A stretch of DNA of 64,000 nucleotides from Leeuwenhoekiella aequorea. GTDB lineage: Bacteria > Bacteroidota > Bacteroidia > Flavobacteriales > Flavobacteriaceae. The translations under genes were made by a program, and so were the position numbers. The stretch is from NCBI RefSeq assembly GCF_004104375.1, contig NZ_QOVM01000002.1, positions 124,001-188,000 on the forward strand, in the 5' to 3' direction. The notes beneath the pieces were generated by a model. That model did not search any database. It was not told where the DNA came from and was given only the letters and a program-made list of their open reading frames with translations. This document shows, in pieces, positions 36,414-59,715 of this stretch; position 1 is the stretch's first letter, and each line of letters begins with the position of its first letter.

Positions 36414-37060
36414 ATGGATGCACTTGGCTCATATTCATATTATCTTGAGATTATTACGCTTATTATAGGTTTAATACGGTACAAAGAATTTAGAAACTTT
36501 GAATTTAAGTTTATCCTGTTTTTTTAGCTTATGTTGTTTTAAATATTCTGCTTTTAAAAATTTTTAAAGCTTATTTAATTAATGTTACAGTGTATCACGC
36601 TATTAATACATTAATATATTTTGCTTTTTTTCTATTGTGGTATAAATCCTTATTGACAAATACATATCGCAAAAGAATTCTAAGTATTCTCCTCATCATC
36701 TTTATAGTATTTTGGATCTACGATATTTTTCTACTTGAAGGGTTTCAGCAGATCTTTATGAGTTACTCGTTTTTACTGGGTACATTTTTGCTAATTATCG
36801 CTGTGGTATTTTATTTTATTGAGATGCTAAAGCGTAATGTAGTGCTAAATATAACACGCTCCCCTTATTTTTGGGTGTCTTTCGGGGTATTAGTCTATTG
36901 TGCAACTTATTTTGCATTTTATATAACATCTCTTATTTTATCAACCGAAAGTCCGGTTATTTTAAGTGTAGTACTATTTCTCATACATAGCATTTTGTAT
37001 GGTTGTTTTGGAATCGCTTTTATCAGAGCAAATCGTAAAAAGTTAGAACATCCACTATAA
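36414..37060 (+). pseudogene. membrane protein gene interrupted by a -1 frameshift at a T7 run
   Basis: From the ATG at 36414 the frame encodes 37 residues (a TM helix, LEIITLIIGLIRYKEF) and hits TAG at 36525-36527 just after seven T. Reading one base back at the T run gives LAYVVLNILLLKIFKAYLIN, which joins without a break to the downstream frame ending at 37060. The joined product is 215 residues with about six or seven helices. The downstream part alone has only an implausible GTG start at 36590. One missing T (8 T expected), programmed or transcriptional slippage, or a sequencing error would each explain it. In flavobacteria such proteins often precede a kinase and regulator pair. Confidence 0.75.
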
Positions 37061-51322: not shown

Positions 51323-52330
51323 TTAACCACCTATTGCAATCATACTTCGATTATTTGAATGGAGATCAGGATTTGTTAATTGATCAAAATCGGTCATTCC
51401 GGCACGCACAGCCTTTTTGCTATTTAGCGACTTATTGATTAAATCTTCAATATTTTCACCATTTCTAAAGGCGGTCAGCAAGTTAGTTTCATCGTTAGAA
51501 AACAAACAGTTTTTTAATTTGCCATCAGCTGTTAGCCGTATACGATTACAGCTATCACAAAATGGATTTGTAACTGAACTAATTATTCCGAAGCTGCCTT
51601 TAAAGTGTTCAATTTGAAAATTACGAGCCGTAAAATTTTGTTCATTTGTAAGAGGTTTTAATGATTGTACTCCGTAGAAATCGGTAACTCGATTTAATAT
51701 TTCGGCTTGACTAACAAGTTTATTTTTATTCCAGGCGTTACCATCAAATGGCATAAACTCTATAAATCGAACATTAATCTCTTGATTGCGAGTTAATTCA
51801 ATAAAATCGGTGATTTCATCTTCATTAAAATCCTTCATCAAAACCGCATTTATTTTCACATTAAATCCCTCATTTATAAGTTGCTGAATATTATCGTAAG
51901 CTAATTTAAACTGGTCACGCCGAGTAATAAACTTGAATTTTTCAGTATCTAAAGTATCTAGACTAACATTAATATCATGTAGTCCGTATTTTTTGAAATC
52001 TTCAATAAATCGATCTGTTAGTAAAGCGTTTGTGGTGATTGAAAGCTTAACGGGCAGCTTAGAAAGCTTCTCTAAAATGATCTTAAAATCTTTACGTACT
52101 AATGGTTCACCACCAGTAAGTCTAATTTTGTCAACTCCATGGTCTACAAATACTGTAGCAATAGACTCAATCTCATCTGCAGTCATTAAATGTGCACGCG
52201 GGCTCAATGCAATACCATCTTTAGGCATACAGTATGTGCAGCGTAGATTACATTTTTCGCTCAACGAAATTCGCAAATAATTATGCGTTCTATTGTGAGT
52301 ATCTGTAAGTATATTTGAGTCTTTAATCAT
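51323..52330 (-). CDS. moaA: GTP 3',8-cyclase MoaA
   Basis: Radical-SAM enzyme making (8S)-3',8-cyclo-7,8-dihydroGTP, the first step of molybdenum cofactor synthesis. The N-terminal 4Fe-4S motif is Cys27-x3-Cys31-x2-Cys34 (SEKCNLRCTYC). The second cluster is bound by CDSCNRIRL with a later Cys (KNCLF). The C-terminus ends in Gly-Gly, as needed for catalysis in the family. The ATG at 52330 overlaps the end of moaCB by 8 bases and is chosen over a GTG at 52348. It is the last gene of the Moco operon. Confidence 0.95.
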   Translation of the reverse strand: MIKDSNILTDTHNRTHNYLRISLSEKCNLRCTYCMPKDGIALSPRAHLMTADEIESIATVFVDHGVDKIRLTGGEPLVRKDFKIILEKLSKLPVKLSITTNALLTDRFIEDFKKYGLHDINVSLDTLDTEKFKFITRRDQFKLAYDNIQQLINEGFNVKINAVLMKDFNEDEITDFIELTRNQEINVRFIEFMPFDGNAWNKNKLVSQAEILNRVTDFYGVQSLKPLTNEQNFTARNFQIEHFKGSFGIISSVTNPFCDSCNRIRLTADGKLKNCLFSNDETNLLTAFRNGENIEDLINKSLNSKKAVRAGMTDFDQLTNPDLHSNNRSMIAIGG

Positions 52331-53240
52331 TAGAATTGTGTTGGGCACCTCTTAAAATTTTAAAAACGTGCAGTAAGTGAGGAAATACAGCATCCATAGA
52401 TTCGCTCGCTCCGTTTGTAGAGCCTGGCAACGCCAGAATTAAACAATTGCCTAACGTACCGGCAACACTACGCGAAAGCATAGCATAGGGCATACGATCC
52501 TGACCATAATTACGAATAGCTTCTTCCACACCTGGAATTCGCCGTTCAAGTATAGGCTCTAAAGCTTCTGGAGTAACATCTCGCATACTCAAACCTGTAC
52601 CGCCGGTAAATATTAATAAATTAACTGTATCAGATAGTTGAAACGCTTTGCTGCGTATAGTCTCTAAATCATCTGGGATAATCTCATAACCTTGAATTTG
52701 CACATTGTGGTTTTGTAATTTGCTGATGATAGCTTTTCCTGCCTGATCTTCTTTTTTGCCTTCTGTAATTGAATCTGAACAAACTATTATATGTGCAGAC
52801 AAACGGGACGGATTCTGATCTTTAAAGCTGCTTTTACCCCCTTTTTTATGCAGCAACTTCACCGAATTTATTTCAATGCCTTTATCTATAGGCTTAAGCA
52901 TGTCATACATGGTAAGTGCTATTACCGATGCTCCGTGCATAGCTTCTACCTCAACACCGGTTTTATAAACGGTTTTTACAGTTATTTCAATCTGAATAGA
53001 TAAATCTTTAATAGAGTAAGCTACAGCAGTATATTCTATAGGTAATGGATGACAATCGGGAATTGTCGTATGTGTATTTTTTACGGCAAATAAACCTGCT
53101 GTTTTTGCCATTTCAAATACATTTCCCTTGGGCACTTTATTCTTTTCTAGCGCTTCAATTGTTTCCGGTTTACTAACCGTTACAGTAGCTTGTGCTGTAG
53201 CGGTGCGTAAGGTGGTTATTTTATGAGTTATATCTACCAT
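52323..53240 (-). CDS. bifunctional MoaC-MoaB/MogA fusion protein
   Basis: Fusion of cyclic pyranopterin monophosphate synthase (MoaC, about 1-148) and a MoaB/MogA-type molybdopterin adenylyltransferase (about 155-305). The MoaC half shows MVDITHK, GNVFEMAKTAGLFAVKNTHTTIPDCHPLP (in pieces) and VEVEAMHGASVIALTMYDM. The MoaB half has IIVCSDSITEGKKEDQAG, the LIFTGGTGLSMRDVTPEAL binding loop and SRSVAGTLGNCLILALPGS. This joins step two with the adenylation step before metal insertion. It is followed by moaA with an 8-base overlap. The fusion is known in Bacteroidota. Confidence 0.93.
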   Translation of the reverse strand: MVDITHKITTLRTATAQATVTVSKPETIEALEKNKVPKGNVFEMAKTAGLFAVKNTHTTIPDCHPLPIEYTAVAYSIKDLSIQIEITVKTVYKTGVEVEAMHGASVIALTMYDMLKPIDKGIEINSVKLLHKKGGKSSFKDQNPSRLSAHIIVCSDSITEGKKEDQAGKAIISKLQNHNVQIQGYEIIPDDLETIRSKAFQLSDTVNLLIFTGGTGLSMRDVTPEALEPILERRIPGVEEAIRNYGQDRMPYAMLSRSVAGTLGNCLILALPGSTNGASESMDAVFPHLLHVFKILRGAQHNSND

Positions 53241-53270: not shown

Positions 53271-53699
53271 TTAACTATTAACTTTCCATTGATGACTATT
53301 ATCTTCAAATAATTCTTTACCAAAAATAGGAGTGCGGTCCTTTACAGCATTTACAATCCATTCTGTAGCAGCATAGACTTCTTTGCGTCTTTTTGAAGAT
53401 ACAAATACAAAGAAGCAAACTTCACCAGATTTTATGGTGCCTATACTATGATAGATGTGCATACATATTAAATCAAATTTCTCAAAAGCTTCTTCTCGTA
53501 TCTCATGAAGTTTTTCATTTGCTAATGCTTCATAACATGTATATTCTATGGCTGCTACCTTTTTGTCATCAATAACATCAGCGCGTACCTGACCTAAAAA
53601 AATATTATGTGCGCCTATGCTTGTTTTAATTTGATGTTTAGCAATTGATTGTGCTATAAAATCACTGGAGACAGGGCCTTCAATAAAAACTTTTTTCAT
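53271..53699 (-). CDS. moaE: molybdopterin synthase catalytic subunit MoaE
   Basis: MoaE forms the heterotetramer with MoaD that adds two sulfurs to cyclic pyranopterin monophosphate. Family segments are GAHNIFLGQVRAD, VAAIEYTCYEALANEKLHEI, ICMHIYHSIGTIKSGEVCFFVFVSSKRRKEVYAATEWIVNAVKDRTPIFGKE (in pieces, holding the catalytic Lys residues). The length of 142 is typical. It lies between the moeB-like gene and moaCB on the same strand, about 30-40 bases from each. Confidence 0.94.
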   Translation of the reverse strand: MKKVFIEGPVSSDFIAQSIAKHQIKTSIGAHNIFLGQVRADVIDDKKVAAIEYTCYEALANEKLHEIREEAFEKFDLICMHIYHSIGTIKSGEVCFFVFVSSKRRKEVYAATEWIVNAVKDRTPIFGKELFEDNSHQWKVNS

Positions 53700-53742: not shown

Positions 53743-54774
53743 TTAATTATTGTGGTTCGCAATTACTTCTGCACCATCTGTAATGGCAGTTACATAATTG
53801 AAACCAGCATCATACATCTGTTGGGCAGCACTTAATGCTCGCTTTCCACTTTGACAAAATATATAGTAAGTTTCAAATTTATTTAGTTGGTTCATTTTCT
53901 GGTTCAACTCTAAAATTGGAATTTCTATTAGCTGATTAAAATTGACTCTTGGTAACTCATCCAGTTCCCGAACATCTATAAAAGTCCCGGCGTCTGGTTG
54001 GTTATTATTAAAACCTGCTGTGTTTACGTCTTGTCTCATATGTGATTTCTCAAAAAAATCTTGAGAGATTTCTGCTCTTTCCGTTTTTGTAAATTCAAAA
54101 CACTGTTGATTTGCTGTAAGGGTATTGTACATTATTAATTTTCCAGATAACACATCCCCAATTCCAAGAATCACCTTTATAACCTCTTGAGCCTGAATTA
54201 ATCCAATAAAACCCACACAGGTACCTAATACACCTGCCTCTGCACAATTAGGAACTTCAGCAGCTTTAGGAAATAGACATCTATACGTAGGACCATTCTT
54301 ATAATTAAATACCGAGACTTGTCCTTCAAAACGATGAATACTTGCGTAAACAATTGGTTTATTACATAAAACAGCAGTATCATTGATTAAATACCGCGAA
54401 CTAATTCTATCTGTTGCATCAACAATAACATCATATTCTTCAACTATTTTATGGGCATTCAATCCTGTTAAGTAGGTCGAATATGTATCAATCATAACAT
54501 CTGGCCTTTGCATCAATAAAAACTGCTTTGCTTCGTCCACTTTGTATTTACCTACAGAATCTGGTGTATAAAGAATTTGTCTATGCAAATTGCTAGGATC
54601 TACACGGTCGCCATCTATAATACCTATGCGCCCTATTCCCGAACCTACTAAATAGGGCAGTAGTGCACATCCTAATCCACCGGCACCCACAACCAGAATG
54701 CGGGCATCAGCTAGCTTTTTTTGTCCTGATTCCCCAATCTCGGGTAAAATTATTTGTCTTTGATAGTTGCTCAT
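53743..54774 (-). CDS. MoeB/ThiF-type MoaD adenylyltransferase with C-terminal rhodanese domain
   Basis: E1-like enzyme that adenylates the C-terminus of MoaD for sulfur loading. The ThiF domain (about 1-235) has RQIILPEIGESGQKKL, the nucleotide loop VVGAGGLGCALLPYL, and DGDRVDPSNLHRQILY. A rhodanese domain follows (about 255-343) with the sulfur-carrier loop CQSGKRA, so one protein can activate MoaD and pass sulfur. The usual zinc-binding Cys pairs are reduced: the CYRC site reads TYRC and the second CxxC is missing. It sits nine bases after moaD, its likely partner. Confidence 0.9.
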   Translation of the reverse strand: MSNYQRQIILPEIGESGQKKLADARILVVGAGGLGCALLPYLVGSGIGRIGIIDGDRVDPSNLHRQILYTPDSVGKYKVDEAKQFLLMQRPDVMIDTYSTYLTGLNAHKIVEEYDVIVDATDRISSRYLINDTAVLCNKPIVYASIHRFEGQVSVFNYKNGPTYRCLFPKAAEVPNCAEAGVLGTCVGFIGLIQAQEVIKVILGIGDVLSGKLIMYNTLTANQQCFEFTKTERAEISQDFFEKSHMRQDVNTAGFNNNQPDAGTFIDVRELDELPRVNFNQLIEIPILELNQKMNQLNKFETYYIFCQSGKRALSAAQQMYDAGFNYVTAITDGAEVIANHNN

Positions 54775-54782
54775 AATTTTGG

Positions 54783-55022
54783 TTAACCTCCAGCAAAAGG
54801 AGGAAGTAATGCGAGGGTATCACCATCATTTAGGTTTACTTGTTCGTTACAATCAATTATTCTTTGATTTACGGCTATTTGATAGGGAATGTGATCGAGA
54901 TCATAGCCACTACTTATTTCCTTTATCAAATCAGTTACATTTATATTCTCAAGATCGCGGGTCTCCTCACTAGTTTCAAAAACCTCTGCTAGTTGTCCAA
55001 AATACTTTAAAGTAATTGTCAT
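54783..55022 (-). CDS. moaD: molybdopterin synthase sulfur-carrier subunit MoaD
   Basis: A 79-residue ubiquitin-like sulfur carrier ending in PPFAGG. The terminal Gly-Gly is adenylated and thiocarboxylated. The N-terminal strand ITLKYFGQLAEVF and the DTLALLPPFAGG end fit the family. The start codon shares one base with the mobA stop (TAATG), so the two are translationally coupled. Works with MoaE and the MoeB-like enzyme in the same operon. Confidence 0.93.
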   Translation of the reverse strand: MTITLKYFGQLAEVFETSEETRDLENINVTDLIKEISSGYDLDHIPYQIAVNQRIIDCNEQVNLNDGDTLALLPPFAGG

Positions 55023-55597
55023 TATTTAATATTATTTTCAAGTTCTTTCAATTCTAGAGGTGTATTTATATTACTTAAAGAGCGTGCATCATCAATTTCT
55101 ATTTTTTGAAAATTTTGTTCCTTAACAAAATTCATCACTTTCAAATCGTTATTATCTAATGCGTCTTCTAACTTTTTTAATAAGCTCTTTTTATAAAATC
55201 CTACTAGAGGATGATCTTTTCCGTTTGCAGTTGCGTAAACAACTTCTTTTTCAGGCAAAGCTTTTGAATGAAGAGTTGTAAGTGTTTGAGTATTAAATAA
55301 TGGAATATCACAACTAAGGATCAAAATGCTTTCCTTTTTACAGTCTGCTAAAGCCGAATGTATTCCAGCTAAAGGACCTTTATTGATATAAATATCCGGT
55401 AAAATTTTATATCCCAATTCTGAATAATTTTCATTTTCAGTAATCAACTTTACTAACATATTTTTAGATTGTAAAACACTAGTAATAAGCTCTATAAATG
55501 TCTTTTCTTGAAGCTTTACTAAACCTTTTTCCGAAGTCATTCTACTGCTTTTTCCTCCACATAATATGTAAACCGGAATCTGATCTAATGGTTCCAT
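55022..55597 (-). CDS. mobA: molybdenum cofactor guanylyltransferase MobA
   Basis: MobA links GMP to molybdopterin to give the guanine-dinucleotide form used by the DMSO-reductase family of oxidoreductases. Motifs are VYILCGGKSSRMTSEKGLV (the nucleotide loop GGxSxRM...K near residues 13-26), NKGPLAGIHSAL, ILILSCDIPLF and DHPLVGFYKKSL. The length of 191 is typical. The need for a guanylylated cofactor fits the YdeP-type oxidoreductase divergent from this operon. The stop overlaps the moaD start by one base. Confidence 0.93.
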   Translation of the reverse strand: MEPLDQIPVYILCGGKSSRMTSEKGLVKLQEKTFIELITSVLQSKNMLVKLITENENYSELGYKILPDIYINKGPLAGIHSALADCKKESILILSCDIPLFNTQTLTTLHSKALPEKEVVYATANGKDHPLVGFYKKSLLKKLEDALDNNDLKVMNFVKEQNFQKIEIDDARSLSNINTPLELKELENNIK

Positions 55598-55607
55598 ATT
55601 TGTATTA

Positions 55608-55943
55608 TTACAATTGATAGAGCTTTTTAAATTCTGTATTTAAAAAATCTTCGCAGGCTGCATTTAACGTTTCAAAATTTACAATCATTTTTTTTCCATA
55701 TGGAGTTAATGTTGTTCCGCCACCATCTTTCCCTCCGGTGTTAGTAATTACCAATGCGTCTTGCGAACTTACATTCATTGAATTAATAAGTTTCCAAGCC
55801 TTTTTATAAGACATATTTAATTCTTTTGCTGCAGCTGAAATAGAATTGGTTTCTTCAATTTTTTTTAATAGCTGAACACGTCCATATCCTAAAAACACAT
55901 TTTCATTATCCTCGATCCATATTCTACTTTTGATGCTTTTCAT
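55608..55943 (-). CDS. ModE-like winged-helix regulator (no TOBE domain)
   Basis: DNA-binding protein of 111 residues matching the N-terminal domain of ModE: LGYGRVQLLKKIEETNSISAAAKELNMSYKKAWKLINSMN (in pieces; the helix-turn-helix near residues 30-55) and the ModE wing signature NTGGKDGGGTTLTPYG. The molybdate-binding TOBE domains of E. coli ModE are absent, so ligand sensing must work differently. It lies two bases after moeA inside the Moco operon. A palindrome of ModE-box form lies upstream of that operon, which suggests autoregulation. Confidence 0.9.
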   Translation of the reverse strand: MKSIKSRIWIEDNENVFLGYGRVQLLKKIEETNSISAAAKELNMSYKKAWKLINSMNVSSQDALVITNTGGKDGGGTTLTPYGKKMIVNFETLNAACEDFLNTEFKKLYQL

Positions 55944-55945
55944 AA

Positions 55946-57121
55946 CTAATAATTGAGATCTAAATAACTTACTGAATCACCTATCTCTAAATCCTCTATC
56001 TGTTCAGGAACAATTAATAATGCGTTACTATTTGCAAAAGTATTAAGCATAGAGCTCGCTTGTCCTGTAAAAGGGGTGATCTCATTGTTATAGACACCAG
56101 CTTTTAGAAAAAGTGTTTTGCTATGAATGTTTTTAATTTTTTCAGTTAAAAATGCGGTACGTTTTTCTAAAAACGGATTGAGACTGCCCGATCTTTTTTG
56201 TATATGTGGTAATACGTATGCATAAAAACAAGATAAACTTGAAGCAGGATTACCTGGAAGTCCAAATACAGATTTTGATCCCTTAGTACCAAACCATAGC
56301 GGTTTGCCGGGCTTTTGATTAACTTTATAAAAGTACTCTTCAATTTCGTTTTGCTGAAATGCCTCTCGTACAAAATCAAAATCTCCTACAGAGATTCCTC
56401 CCGAAACAAGAAGGATATCGGCGCTCTTGAGTGCATTGTGTACTGCATCGATTGTTTGAGACAAACTGTCTTCAACTTTTACTATTTGAATGTCAAAAAC
56501 ACCCAATCGTTTTAAAGCAGTTTCAAGCATTATCCCATTGCTTTCATAGATATGATTAGGCTTTAGAACAGTCCCTCGTTTTTGCAATTCGTTTCCGGTT
56601 GTTAATATGCAAATTTTAGGTTTTTGATATGCTTTTATATGGGTTAAACCCAGACCGGCCATAAATCCTATAGATGCTTCGTTTATTTTATGTCCAGTTT
56701 TTAGTACTGTAGTTCCTGCTTTTAACTGTTCTGCAATAGGCCGAACATTTGCACCAAGTGCAGGAAGTTTTTCAATATGTATAGAATCACCATCCCGATT
56801 AACGTGTTCTTGAATTACCACCGTATCTGCACCATCAGGAAGCGGTGCGCCTGTAAAAATCCGAATGGCCTCACCAGATTTGACTTGCGGAGTTATAGAA
56901 TCTCCTGCTTGAACCTGACCAATAACTTTAAGATGTTTGTCGCCCGTATTAATAAAGGCATAACCGTCCATTGCAGATTGGCGAAATGAAGGTAGTGAAA
57001 TAGGAGCTACACAATCTTCAGCTAAAAAATACCCTAAACTGTTTTCAAGTTCGATGTTACAAACAGGTAACTTTTCGGCATATTTTATAACAAGAGTTTG
57101 TGCTTCAGAAACAGATATCAT
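55946..57121 (-). CDS. moeA: molybdopterin molybdotransferase MoeA
   Basis: MoeA inserts molybdate into adenylated molybdopterin. Family segments are SLPSFRQSAMDGYAF, GEAIRIFTGAPLPDGADTVVIQE (in two pieces), GLTHIKAYQKPKICILTTGNEL, the MoCF loop ILLVSGGISVGDFDFV, and GKPLWFGTKGSKSVFGLPGNPASSLSCF (in pieces). The length of 391 is normal. It is the first gene of the Moco operon; a ModE-type palindrome ends only 10 bases upstream of its ATG. Confidence 0.95.
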   Translation of the reverse strand: MISVSEAQTLVIKYAEKLPVCNIELENSLGYFLAEDCVAPISLPSFRQSAMDGYAFINTGDKHLKVIGQVQAGDSITPQVKSGEAIRIFTGAPLPDGADTVVIQEHVNRDGDSIHIEKLPALGANVRPIAEQLKAGTTVLKTGHKINEASIGFMAGLGLTHIKAYQKPKICILTTGNELQKRGTVLKPNHIYESNGIMLETALKRLGVFDIQIVKVEDSLSQTIDAVHNALKSADILLVSGGISVGDFDFVREAFQQNEIEEYFYKVNQKPGKPLWFGTKGSKSVFGLPGNPASSLSCFYAYVLPHIQKRSGSLNPFLEKRTAFLTEKIKNIHSKTLFLKAGVYNNEITPFTGQASSMLNTFANSNALLIVPEQIEDLEIGDSVSYLDLNY

Positions 57122-57130
57122 ATTTAGAGG

Positions 57131-57154
57131 CGTTATGTCTTAGCGAATATAACG
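57131..57154. promoter_or_regulatory. ModE-box-like operator upstream of moeA
   Basis: The 24-base palindrome CGTTATGT-N8-ATATAACG (arms 57131-57138 and 57147-57154) has seven of eight arm positions symmetric. It matches the known E. coli ModE site pattern (CGnTATAT and ATATnACG arms). It lies 10-33 bases before the moeA ATG in the moeA/ydeP divergent gap, close enough to block transcription of the operon that encodes the ModE-like protein. Confidence 0.7.
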
Positions 57155-57396: not shown

Positions 57397-59715
57397 ATGT
57401 CTCAAAACTTTAAGCGTAATATTTCACTAACTGGAGCTGAAGAATTTACAAATATTAAATTGGGTGATCCTGTTCGCGACGCAGCAGGGATGTTAGGTGT
57501 GAAAGAAGCACTTAAGCACGGCTTTAAAGAGATGGGAGTTTTACGTTCTATGGGGGCGCTTCTTAAAATGAATCAAAAAGATGGATTTGACTGCCCCAGT
57601 TGTGCTTGGCCAGATCCTGAAAAGAGATCATCTGTTGCAGAATATTGTGAGAATGGTGCAAAAGCACTCGCCGATGAATCAACTACCGATAAAATAGGTG
57701 CAGATATGTTTAAGAAATGGTCTGTGGAAGAGTTGTCTCATTTATCGGACTACGAACTGAATAAATTTGGTCGTTTAGTAGAGCCTCTTGTGCTTAGGCC
57801 GGGAAGTTTACATTACGAATCGATAAGCTGGGATGACGCGTATAAACTCATTGCAGACGAACTAAAGAAATTAGACTCACCAGACGAAGCTATATTTTAT
57901 ACCTCAGGTAGATCAAGCAACGAGGCGGCTTTTCTTTACGGAACATTTGCTCGTGCTTTTGGCACAAATAATATGCCCGATTGTTCAAATATGTGCCATG
58001 AGTCTAGTGGTGTAGCACTTGGTGAAACGCTAGGAATAGGTAAAGGTTCTACTGTTTTAGAAGATTTATACGAAGCAGAAGTTATTATCATAGCAGGTCA
58101 AAATCCGGGGACAAATCACCCGAGAATGCTTTCTGCTTTAGAGAAGTGTAAAAATAATGGTGGTAAAATTATAAGTATAAATCCATTAGAAGAATCCGGA
58201 CTTGTAAATTTTAAAAATCCGCAGCATTTAAGTGGCGTTATTGGGAGTGGTGTAGATATGGCAGATGTTCACCTTCCTGTTAATATTAATCAAGACATCC
58301 CACTTATTAAATTGATACTAAAAAAGCTTGCGATTCTTGATTCAGTTGACAAATCGGTTTTTGATCATGTATTTATTGAAAAGTACACCAGTGGTTACGA
58401 TACGCTAATTGCAGACCTTATGCAATACGATGAGAAAGATTTGCTTAAACGTACCGGTGTAGATGAATCTGCAATAAATAAAACAGTAGCATTACTTCGG
58501 CATTCTTCTAAAATTATTATTTGCTGGGCAATGGGACTCACTCAACACAAAAATGGCGTTGAGAATATTAGAGAATTTGTAAACCTATTGCTATTAAAAG
58601 GAGCATTAGGAAAGCCTGGAGCAGGAACTTGCCCTGTACGCGGACACAGCAATGTACAAGGAGATAGGAGCGTAGGGATACAACATTTTGTTGATAAGGA
58701 TATGAATGCTCGTATTGAGAAATATATGCATTTTACACCACCTTCGGAACAAGGTCTCGATGTTGTAGAATCGATGCAAGCCATGCATAATGGAAAAGCT
58801 AAAGCCTTTTTATGTCTGGGCGGAAACTTCTTAATGGCCGCTTCAGATACAAAATATACGGCTGAAGCTTTACAGAATTGCAATTTAACGGTGCAAATAA
58901 GTACTAAATTAAATCGAACTCATTTAGTAACCGGTAAAACCGGAATTATATTACCAACGTTAGGTCGATCTGAAAAAGATGAGCAAAATGGTAAAAGACG
59001 GTATTTTACGGTTGAAAACAGTATGGGTAAAATAAGCCAGTCAAAAGGTGTATTGAAACCTGCATCAGATAATGTGCGTTCTGAACCACAAATTATAGCA
59101 GAGCTTGCAGATGCTTACTTTGAGAATCATCCGTTAGACTGGAAAGCAATGGGTGAAGATTATGAGATAATAAGAAATTATATAGATCTTGTCGCAAAAG
59201 GTTTTGAAGATACAGCTAAAAAATCTGAGGGACACGGTTACTATCTACCTAACAATGTGCGTAATCTAGACTTTAGTATGTTACCTAAAGGTAAAGCTCA
59301 ACTGACCATAAATAAACTTCCAGAGCATGTATTAGCTCCAGATGAATTGATGTTGATGACTATACGATCTCACGATCAATTTAATACAACTATTTATGGT
59401 CTTGATGATCGCTATAGAGGTGTTTATAATGAACGTAGAGTTGTTTTTATGAATCAAAAGGATATGGATGCGAGAGGACTTAAAAAACTTGATGTTGTAA
59501 ATCTTACAAGTACTTATGATGGGATTGTACGAAAAGCAAATAAGTTCTTAATAATACCCTATAAAATCCCTACAGGTAATATAGCGGCATATTTCCCGGA
59601 AACTAATTTACTCGTTCCCTATAACCATTTTGCAAAGCGTAGCAATACGCCAATAAGTAAATCTGTACGAGTTAGGGTTTATAAAAAAGAATCAAATCCC
59701 GTGGCGATTGATTAA
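57397..59715 (+). CDS. FdhF/YdeP-family molybdopterin oxidoreductase
   Basis: Large molybdopterin enzyme of the YdeP group within the DMSO-reductase family. The N-terminal region has DCPSCAWPDPEKRS. The core begins at about 150, with FYTSGRSSNEAAFLYGTFARAFGTNNMPDCSNMCHESSG (in pieces), IIAGQNPGTNHPRML and a WAMGLTQHKNGV segment; the C-terminal MopB-binding domain has LMTIRSHDQFNTTIYG. No Tat or Sec signal is seen, so it is cytoplasmic. The four-Cys Fe-S motif of formate dehydrogenases is missing. The ATG at 57397 is preferred over a TTG 24 bases upstream. It is divergent from, and probably served by, the Moco operon. In E. coli ydeP is linked to acid resistance; the substrate is unknown. Confidence 0.9.
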   Translation: MSQNFKRNISLTGAEEFTNIKLGDPVRDAAGMLGVKEALKHGFKEMGVLRSMGALLKMNQKDGFDCPSCAWPDPEKRSSVAEYCENGAKALADESTTDKIGADMFKKWSVEELSHLSDYELNKFGRLVEPLVLRPGSLHYESISWDDAYKLIADELKKLDSPDEAIFYTSGRSSNEAAFLYGTFARAFGTNNMPDCSNMCHESSGVALGETLGIGKGSTVLEDLYEAEVIIIAGQNPGTNHPRMLSALEKCKNNGGKIISINPLEESGLVNFKNPQHLSGVIGSGVDMADVHLPVNINQDIPLIKLILKKLAILDSVDKSVFDHVFIEKYTSGYDTLIADLMQYDEKDLLKRTGVDESAINKTVALLRHSSKIIICWAMGLTQHKNGVENIREFVNLLLLKGALGKPGAGTCPVRGHSNVQGDRSVGIQHFVDKDMNARIEKYMHFTPPSEQGLDVVESMQAMHNGKAKAFLCLGGNFLMAASDTKYTAEALQNCNLTVQISTKLNRTHLVTGKTGIILPTLGRSEKDEQNGKRRYFTVENSMGKISQSKGVLKPASDNVRSEPQIIAELADAYFENHPLDWKAMGEDYEIIRNYIDLVAKGFEDTAKKSEGHGYYLPNNVRNLDFSMLPKGKAQLTINKLPEHVLAPDELMLMTIRSHDQFNTTIYGLDDRYRGVYNERRVVFMNQKDMDARGLKKLDVVNLTSTYDGIVRKANKFLIIPYKIPTGNIAAYFPETNLLVPYNHFAKRSNTPISKSVRVRVYKKESNPVAID

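Follow-up and report, generated by a model that had tools for sequence, protein, structure and literature searches.

The reference point for this locus is, of course, ModE of E. coli, in which a winged helix (1b9m) is joined to tandem C-terminal TOBE (Mop) domains that bind molybdate. The ModE box of E. coli stands at modABC, and the modA promoter of strain K-12 contains the operator CGTTATATTGTCGCCTACATAACG. The consensus core of the E. coli site is printed in excerpts of a 2004 report as CGNTATATA-N6-TATATANCG (PMC545781).

Those excerpts also report a single-domain ModE, which has one DNA-binding domain and whose way of sensing molybdenum is called "not clear" in Desulfovibrio; its predicted site there, CGGTCACG-N14-CGTGACCG, lies at molybdate transport genes (PMC545781). 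A putative single-domain ModE from Agrobacterium tumefaciens has a solved structure (2ijl), which holds the helix-turn-helix (HTH) part only. Geobacter metallireducens offers the mirror case, where, according to excerpts of the report, only the C-terminal part of ModE is kept and the boxes are being lost (PMC2700814).

The locus described here lies in a window of 64,000 nucleotides from Leeuwenhoekiella aequorea; by "window" we mean this whole stretch of DNA. Its minus strand carries a Moco operon in the order moeA, modE, mobA, moaD, moeB/moeZ, moaE, moaCB, moaA, with a molybdoenzyme gene diverging from it. The features are as follows.

57131..57154, no strand: very probable ModE-type operator, the 24-bp palindrome CGTTATGT-N8-ATATAACG (pattern scan, relatives, arms of the E. 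coli modA operator)
57144..57151, minus strand: TATATTCG, within the operator; putative -7 element for moeA, one mismatch from the consensus TAnnTTTG
55946..57121, minus strand: moeA, molybdenum insertase, at the head of the operon (ORF and Pfam)
55608..55943, minus strand: modE, 111 aa, single-domain (HTH-only), with Cys97 (ORF, Pfam, NCBIfam, structure)
55022..55597, minus strand: mobA, MobA-like nucleotidyltransferase (ORF and Pfam)
54783..55022, minus strand: moaD, ThiS family (ORF and Pfam)
53743..54774, minus strand: moeB/moeZ, ThiF plus rhodanese (ORF and Pfam)
53271..53699, minus strand: moaE (ORF and Pfam)
52323..53240, minus strand: moaCB fusion (ORF and Pfam)
51323..52348, minus strand: moaA, last gene of the operon (ORF and Pfam)
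57397..59715, plus strand: FdhF/YdeP-family molybdoenzyme gene, divergent neighbor (Pfam, NCBIfam)

The original prediction, made from the letters of the window, held that this palindrome matches the E. coli ModE box, that it lies 10-33 bases upstream of moeA, and that moeA is followed at two bases by a ModE-like winged helix that lacks TOBE domains. All of this stands. Nine bases separate the operator from the ATG of moeA, and modE starts two bases past the end of moeA. On the other side, the start of the YdeP-type gene is 242 bp from the operator. Read on the moeA strand, the operator is CGTTATATTCGCTAAGACATAACG. It has the 24-bp length of the K-12 modA operator and is identical to it in the outer 8+8 bases (16/16), with 18/24 bases agreeing overall; by hand count, 13 of the 16 specified bases of the consensus core in the excerpted report agree as well (PMC545781). 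The box pattern CGTTATAT-N8-ANATAACG, in E. coli spacing, is thus found before a molybdenum gene, here moeA, the first gene of a Moco operon that encodes its own ModE.

A whole-genome scan finds the perfect palindrome once in 3.46 Mb, where base composition predicts 0.043 copies per genome and 3e-6 in 275 bp. With up to three mismatches allowed, the window holds four matches against 0.89 expected, two of the four being the operator itself read on both strands. A further window match with two mismatches, at 36833, was rejected as a second operator; it sits within an ORF. Across the genome, up to two mismatches give 21 matches against 33 for a reversed-pattern control, and weight therefore falls only on the one perfect site. 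The search for further regulon sites by mismatch scanning was abandoned because the real pattern is rarer than its control. Elsewhere in the genome lies a tight cluster of modA, a gene for a 134-aa TOBE protein, modB and modC, and the whole-genome scan finds no perfect box there. Thus, of the autoregulated Moco regulon first proposed, the operator and the autoregulated layout find strong support in comparison, and the extension of the regulon beyond the operon does not, with one perfect box in the genome and none in the mod cluster.

The 111-aa protein is ModE-like at the DNA. Pfam recognizes a LysR-type HTH in it and no TOBE domain. The NCBIfam model for the ModE DNA-binding domain (TIGR00637) matches with E 1.2e-25 and 89.4 bits, slightly below its curated cut-off of 98.5, and this shortfall counts against the assignment. 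The best sequence match is 2ijl (E 2.8e-16), followed by 1b9m (E 6.6e-15). An AlphaFold model built from 10 sequences (mean pLDDT 89.7) matches the same two folds, with TM-scores of 0.82 for 2ijl and 0.77 over the query for 1b9m. Family model, sequence and fold therefore agree on a ModE-type winged-helix DNA-binding domain. Further, the alignment with E. coli ModE preserves the motif SYKxAW; together with the identical outer arms, this supports the proposal that the protein reads the classical site. Its domain make-up is that of a single-domain ModE, of the Desulfovibrio and 2ijl type, and not of a full ModE. What sets it apart is Cys97, which the model places in a long C-terminal helix (81-110). 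This cysteine has no counterpart in the aligned stretch of E. coli ModE, which runs to about residue 95, and the aligned stretch of 2ijl has no cysteine near position 97.

Conservation of the palindrome upstream of moeA orthologs had been named as the check on the prediction, and the palindrome is conserved. Here, the sample was 120 Flavobacteriaceae genomes, one per genus, of which 37 have a match to this ModE. The strict box pattern CGYTATNT-N8-ANATARCG occurs in 32/37 ModE-bearing genomes and in 3/83 ModE-lacking ones (p 2e-20, kinship ignored); the matches in those three (G037, G060, G073) are without TATATTTG. A strict match in G090 and the second strict matches in G014 fall within ORFs and were taken as chance, and the moeA box of G090 is one base off the strict pattern. 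When each operon is examined in turn, 35 of 36 testable genera with ModE have the box in front of their Moco genes, comprising 28 inspected genomes plus G017, G019, G059, G062, G066, G079 and G118. G048, whose contig ends within moeA, lies outside the 36. Arm bases in the 28 inspected boxes agree at 12/12 in 20 genomes and at 11/12 in eight. The exception is G031, whose Moco operon has no box; its ModE is divergent (40% identity) and is encoded beside an apparent xanthine-dehydrogenase-type gene.

The control consists of all 30 family genomes that have MoaC but lack this ModE. Each has moeA, and at the best moeA locus per genome, over the 400 bp before the match and its first 60 bp, none of the 30 reaches 10/12 arm bases. 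The control is fair without being perfect, as its moeA genes are mostly distant (about 27-36% identity, with at least 39% in 7/30), it covers the best copy only and so leaves out the second moeA of three genomes, and some matches start elsewhere than at the start codon. The distance of these genes and the restriction to one copy must be counted against the case.

A second view comes from 80 named loci that were picked by likeness to ModE, some of them from genomes already in the family count. In 73 of these, moeA lies upstream of modE, and the box there has 11 or 12 arm bases in 58 loci and fewer in 15. Seven of the 15, all Aquimarina-type, have a box that has drifted symmetrically to CGYTGTRT-N8-AYACARCG (at least 14/16 bases), about 10 bp before moeA; that both arms should drift together would speak for an operator. 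Against it stand two weak drifted boxes (L166 and L168, 12/16 bases), five loci with no clear box (L155, L160, L161, L163, L183) and one whose box region is cut off by a contig end (L180). The contig of L180 has Chlorobiota in its title, but its Moco operon is of the flavobacterial type and it falls within Flavobacteriaceae in the tree; it is probably mis-binned. In the remaining seven of the 80 loci, the box lies before modE and has 11 or 12 arm bases. Where modE heads the operon (L157, L159, L192, L193), it is modE that the box precedes. In G118, modE and mobA form a pair 229 kb away from the other Moco genes, and moeA nonetheless keeps its box. The box therefore tracks the promoter of the Moco operon, given a ModE anywhere in the genome.

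A lone modE of the Cys97 type was also seen diverging from a Tat-type molybdoenzyme gene in six loci (L144, L151, L164, L171, L178, L028). Between the two genes lies a box, with 11 or 12 bases in five of the six and 10 bases in L028.

The promoter itself deserves attention. In Bacteroidota promoters, TAnnTTTG is the -7 element. The consensus of the 28 boxes, in the direction of moeA, is CGYTATATTTG-N3-RGA-N-ATAACG, and in 24 of them TAnnTTTG occupies box positions 4-11. In the window, the -7 element has its one mismatch and the moeA promoter shows no clear -33 element, which are points against. The -33 element is weak among relatives too, where TTG at spacings of 20 and 21 is found in four and three of 49 promoters, respectively, against 0.8 per position.

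Since box and promoter overlap, the conservation of the one owes something to that of the other. One might then suppose that the palindrome persists because it belongs to the promoter, or because a different regulator uses it, and that its likeness to the ModE box is coincidental; the binding of ModE to the box does, after all, rest on comparison. Such a coincidence would have to explain why both arms are kept, including the arm that lies outside TAnnTTTG, why the box accompanies the presence of ModE and stays at moeA when modE is unlinked, and why the outer arms are those of the E. coli operator. We consider it very improbable.

The palindrome is real and conserved, and it is very probably a working ModE operator. 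It is highly likely, as judged from sequence comparison, that the TOBE-less ModE uses it to block the promoter and so repress the operon that encodes it. The observed support consists of the palindrome, the fact that it is conserved and co-occurs with ModE, its position on the promoter element and the conserved DNA-reading motif. A ModE dimer would bind both arms. As the operator covers the -7 element and ends nine bases before the start of moeA, RNA polymerase would be kept out, lowering transcription of moeA-modE-mobA-moaD-moeB-moaE-moaCB-moaA. Blocking of the promoter appears the best mechanism for repression, given that the box embeds TAnnTTTG. The outcome would be negative autoregulation of Moco synthesis, with the operon presumably opening when Moco or molybdate runs short.

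Some relatives carry a second palindrome, TGAY-N4-RTCA, which is found in nine of 49 non-redundant moeA promoters (shuffled sequences average 0.27 and never exceed 2). In eight of these (L117, L119, L121, L127, L128, L140, L152, L153) its center lies 29-30 bp before the -7 element; in the ninth (L124) its position differs. Activators of the CRP/FNR type usually sit near -41, and the palindrome would be a candidate site, near -41, for such an activator of Moco genes. None was seen in the 40 bases before the operator of the window.

How, then, might the repressor learn about molybdenum? The TOBE domain was searched for (PF03459, E <= 0.01) in the 120 family genomes and found in eight, including three of the 37 with ModE (G000, G062, G077), L. 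aequorea being one of the three; none was found in the other 34. A diverged TOBE domain could be missed at this threshold, as only the second half of the 134-aa protein of L. aequorea is recognized. modA is present in 11/120 genomes and in 5/37 with ModE (G000, G059, G062, G077, G118). MoaC is present in 67/120, including all 37. The ModE of this clade is thus tied to the making of Moco, and not to ModABC or a TOBE sensor. The L. aequorea genome, with modABC and a TOBE protein, is an exception within the clade.

That exception suggests a ModE split in two, an HTH half working with the separate 134-aa TOBE protein of the modA-TOBE-modB-modC cluster, which would sense molybdate. Both halves are present in L. 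aequorea. Further, a cluster in G287 (L255) places modA, a related gene for a 134-aa TOBE protein, modB, modC and an HTH-only modE together, and in G509 a 72-aa TOBE frame adjoins an HTH-only modE. If this were the rule, the TOBE protein should be found wherever the HTH half occurs. It is found in only 3/37 ModE-bearing genomes (with the caveat on diverged TOBE domains given above), and five of the eight TOBE-bearing genomes lack this ModE. The split was therefore rejected as a general mechanism, and as an account of this regulator it is unlikely, if conceivable in L. aequorea with its TOBE protein. The original claim that the protein senses in a different way is supported, short of proof, for the clade, where 34/37 lack a TOBE match, and is less secure for L. 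aequorea.

For most of the clade, the signal would then have to bypass any TOBE domain. Moco status and molybdate are the likeliest inputs, sensed perhaps by the helix that bears Cys97 or by a partner protein. The loci yield 138 ModE proteins, with near-copies and shared genomes counted; Cys97 is present in 115 of these, and every other position has at most one cysteine. It occurs in 109 of 110 Moco-linked copies (the exception is L185), in all six copies that neighbor a gene for a Tat-type molybdoenzyme (L028 and five loci of Tenacibaculum), and in none of the 22 others. This sample is biased toward the cysteine, as the alignment used to retrieve the named loci consists entirely of proteins with Cys97. 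A tree joins the Moco-linked and molybdoenzyme-linked copies (68 rows, support 84/94) and leaves the others apart; it rests on few columns and a midpoint root, and that fork is outside the well-supported ones. Cys97 is accordingly put forward as a candidate sensor on the strength of its distribution.

The protein might, of course, sense nothing. Variants of E. coli ModE with a damaged C-terminal half repress without molybdate, and neither Pfam nor NCBIfam finds a known ligand-binding domain in the window protein. ModE would then bind with or without molybdenum and hold the operon at a steady level. The retention of Cys97 in 115/138 copies, with at most one cysteine at any other position, weighs against this. 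So does an experiment in Flavobacterium IR1, where, according to excerpts of the report, loss of moeA raised MoaA, MoaC2 and MobA and left MoaE and MoeZ unchanged (PMC12758843). That response fits Moco feedback, which is compatibility and not proof; IR1 may or may not carry this ModE. On balance, a repressor blind to any signal is rather unlikely.

Relatives' operons hold one more clue. Many carry, after modE and usually before mobA, a TauE/SafE-family gene of about 247 aa, for example in L245 (2017-2760, minus strand) and L246 (2827-3567, plus strand). Both permeases that were scanned contain PF01925, and a relative is found in 73 loci. The window lacks the gene, its modE and mobA being separated by 55598-55607, and the L. 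aequorea genome has modABC. On the IR1 report (PMC12758843), the extra gene of the relatives could be taken for sumT; that identification was rejected, as the sequence is that of a TauE/SafE permease.

Among the 37 ModE-bearing genomes, the permease is present in 30 of 32 without modA (the exceptions are G001 and G031) and in none of the five with modA (p 5e-5). A second set comprises 56 genomes, of which 0/28 with the permease and 14/28 without it have modA, one of these 14 (G531) by a weak match in a 495-aa frame. Combined, and leaving out two genomes already counted (L117, L126), the sets have modA in 0/57 genomes with the permease and in 19/34 without (p 1e-10, kinship ignored); the other 15 of those 34 have neither. 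From gene content, the TauE/SafE permease is a candidate molybdate importer that would replace ModABC. No description of such a TauE/SafE molybdate permease was found in the open literature.

HTH-only ModE proteins also occur elsewhere in Bacteroidota (L194-L206, L210, L212). These resemble the window protein in being HTH alone; they differ in lacking Cys97, in falling outside the Moco clade of the tree, and in their gene neighbors, which are not moeA but modABC or genes for TonB-dependent receptors or molybdoenzymes. Several have a box or drifted box near modE. A TOBE match was found in three of 17 such genomes searched, and also in G318, which has both kinds. Full-length ModE proteins of families f18 and f16, from the same phylum set (L207-L211, L214, L215), share the HTH type of the window protein but run to 260-295 aa, with a C-terminal half that by eye looks like a tandem Mop/TOBE. 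A box was found in three of six such genomes scanned (G124, G247, G298); the looser pattern used is noisy, and only CG...CG matches were kept.

Several side observations belong with these loci. In L202, L204, L205, L210, L212, L249 and L251, a ModE-type box precedes a TonB-dependent-receptor-like gene, in several cases right after an HTH-only modE; some of these ModE proteins are encoded beside the box and some merely share its genome. The plug domain was recognized by Pfam for L205 and L210, and the rest were assigned by N-terminal likeness. Box and gene together make a candidate outer-membrane route for molybdenum. HTH-only modE lies near modA in L253, L254 and L255, and the cluster of L255 (2739-5909) might encode a split ModE in one operon. 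In three Flavobacterium-type loci (L195, L198, L203), ModE has AYRQAW in place of SYKKAW, and by eye a drifted palindrome of the type CAGTAT-N12-ATACTG lies in the following intergenic stretch, possibly a case of co-evolution between recognition helix and site. A box with perfect arms also stands at 1517-1540 of L250 (G306), directly before a cysteine-desulfurase-like gene.

No description of a ModE operator at flavobacterial Moco operons was found in the open literature, where "mode" as a common word blunts the search. The finding gives a clade with a defined regulator, operator and target operon, in which 34/37 sampled genomes have no TOBE match, and for which a near-invariant cysteine can be named as candidate sensor. 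The mutual exclusion of permease and modA points, in turn, to an unrecognized molybdate importer in flavobacteria. The boldest reading joins these points: the TOBE-free ModE would read Moco status or molybdate through Cys97, for example by a thiol that ligates the molybdenum of Moco, the TauE/SafE permease would stand in for ModABC in most relatives, and the operon would form a self-contained unit. We offer this only tentatively, as improbable in its full form. If true, it would be a way of sensing molybdenum unlike that of TOBE proteins, with uptake, cofactor synthesis and feedback in one operon. With a single small protein and a single 24-bp site, the question of molybdenum sensing becomes testable here.
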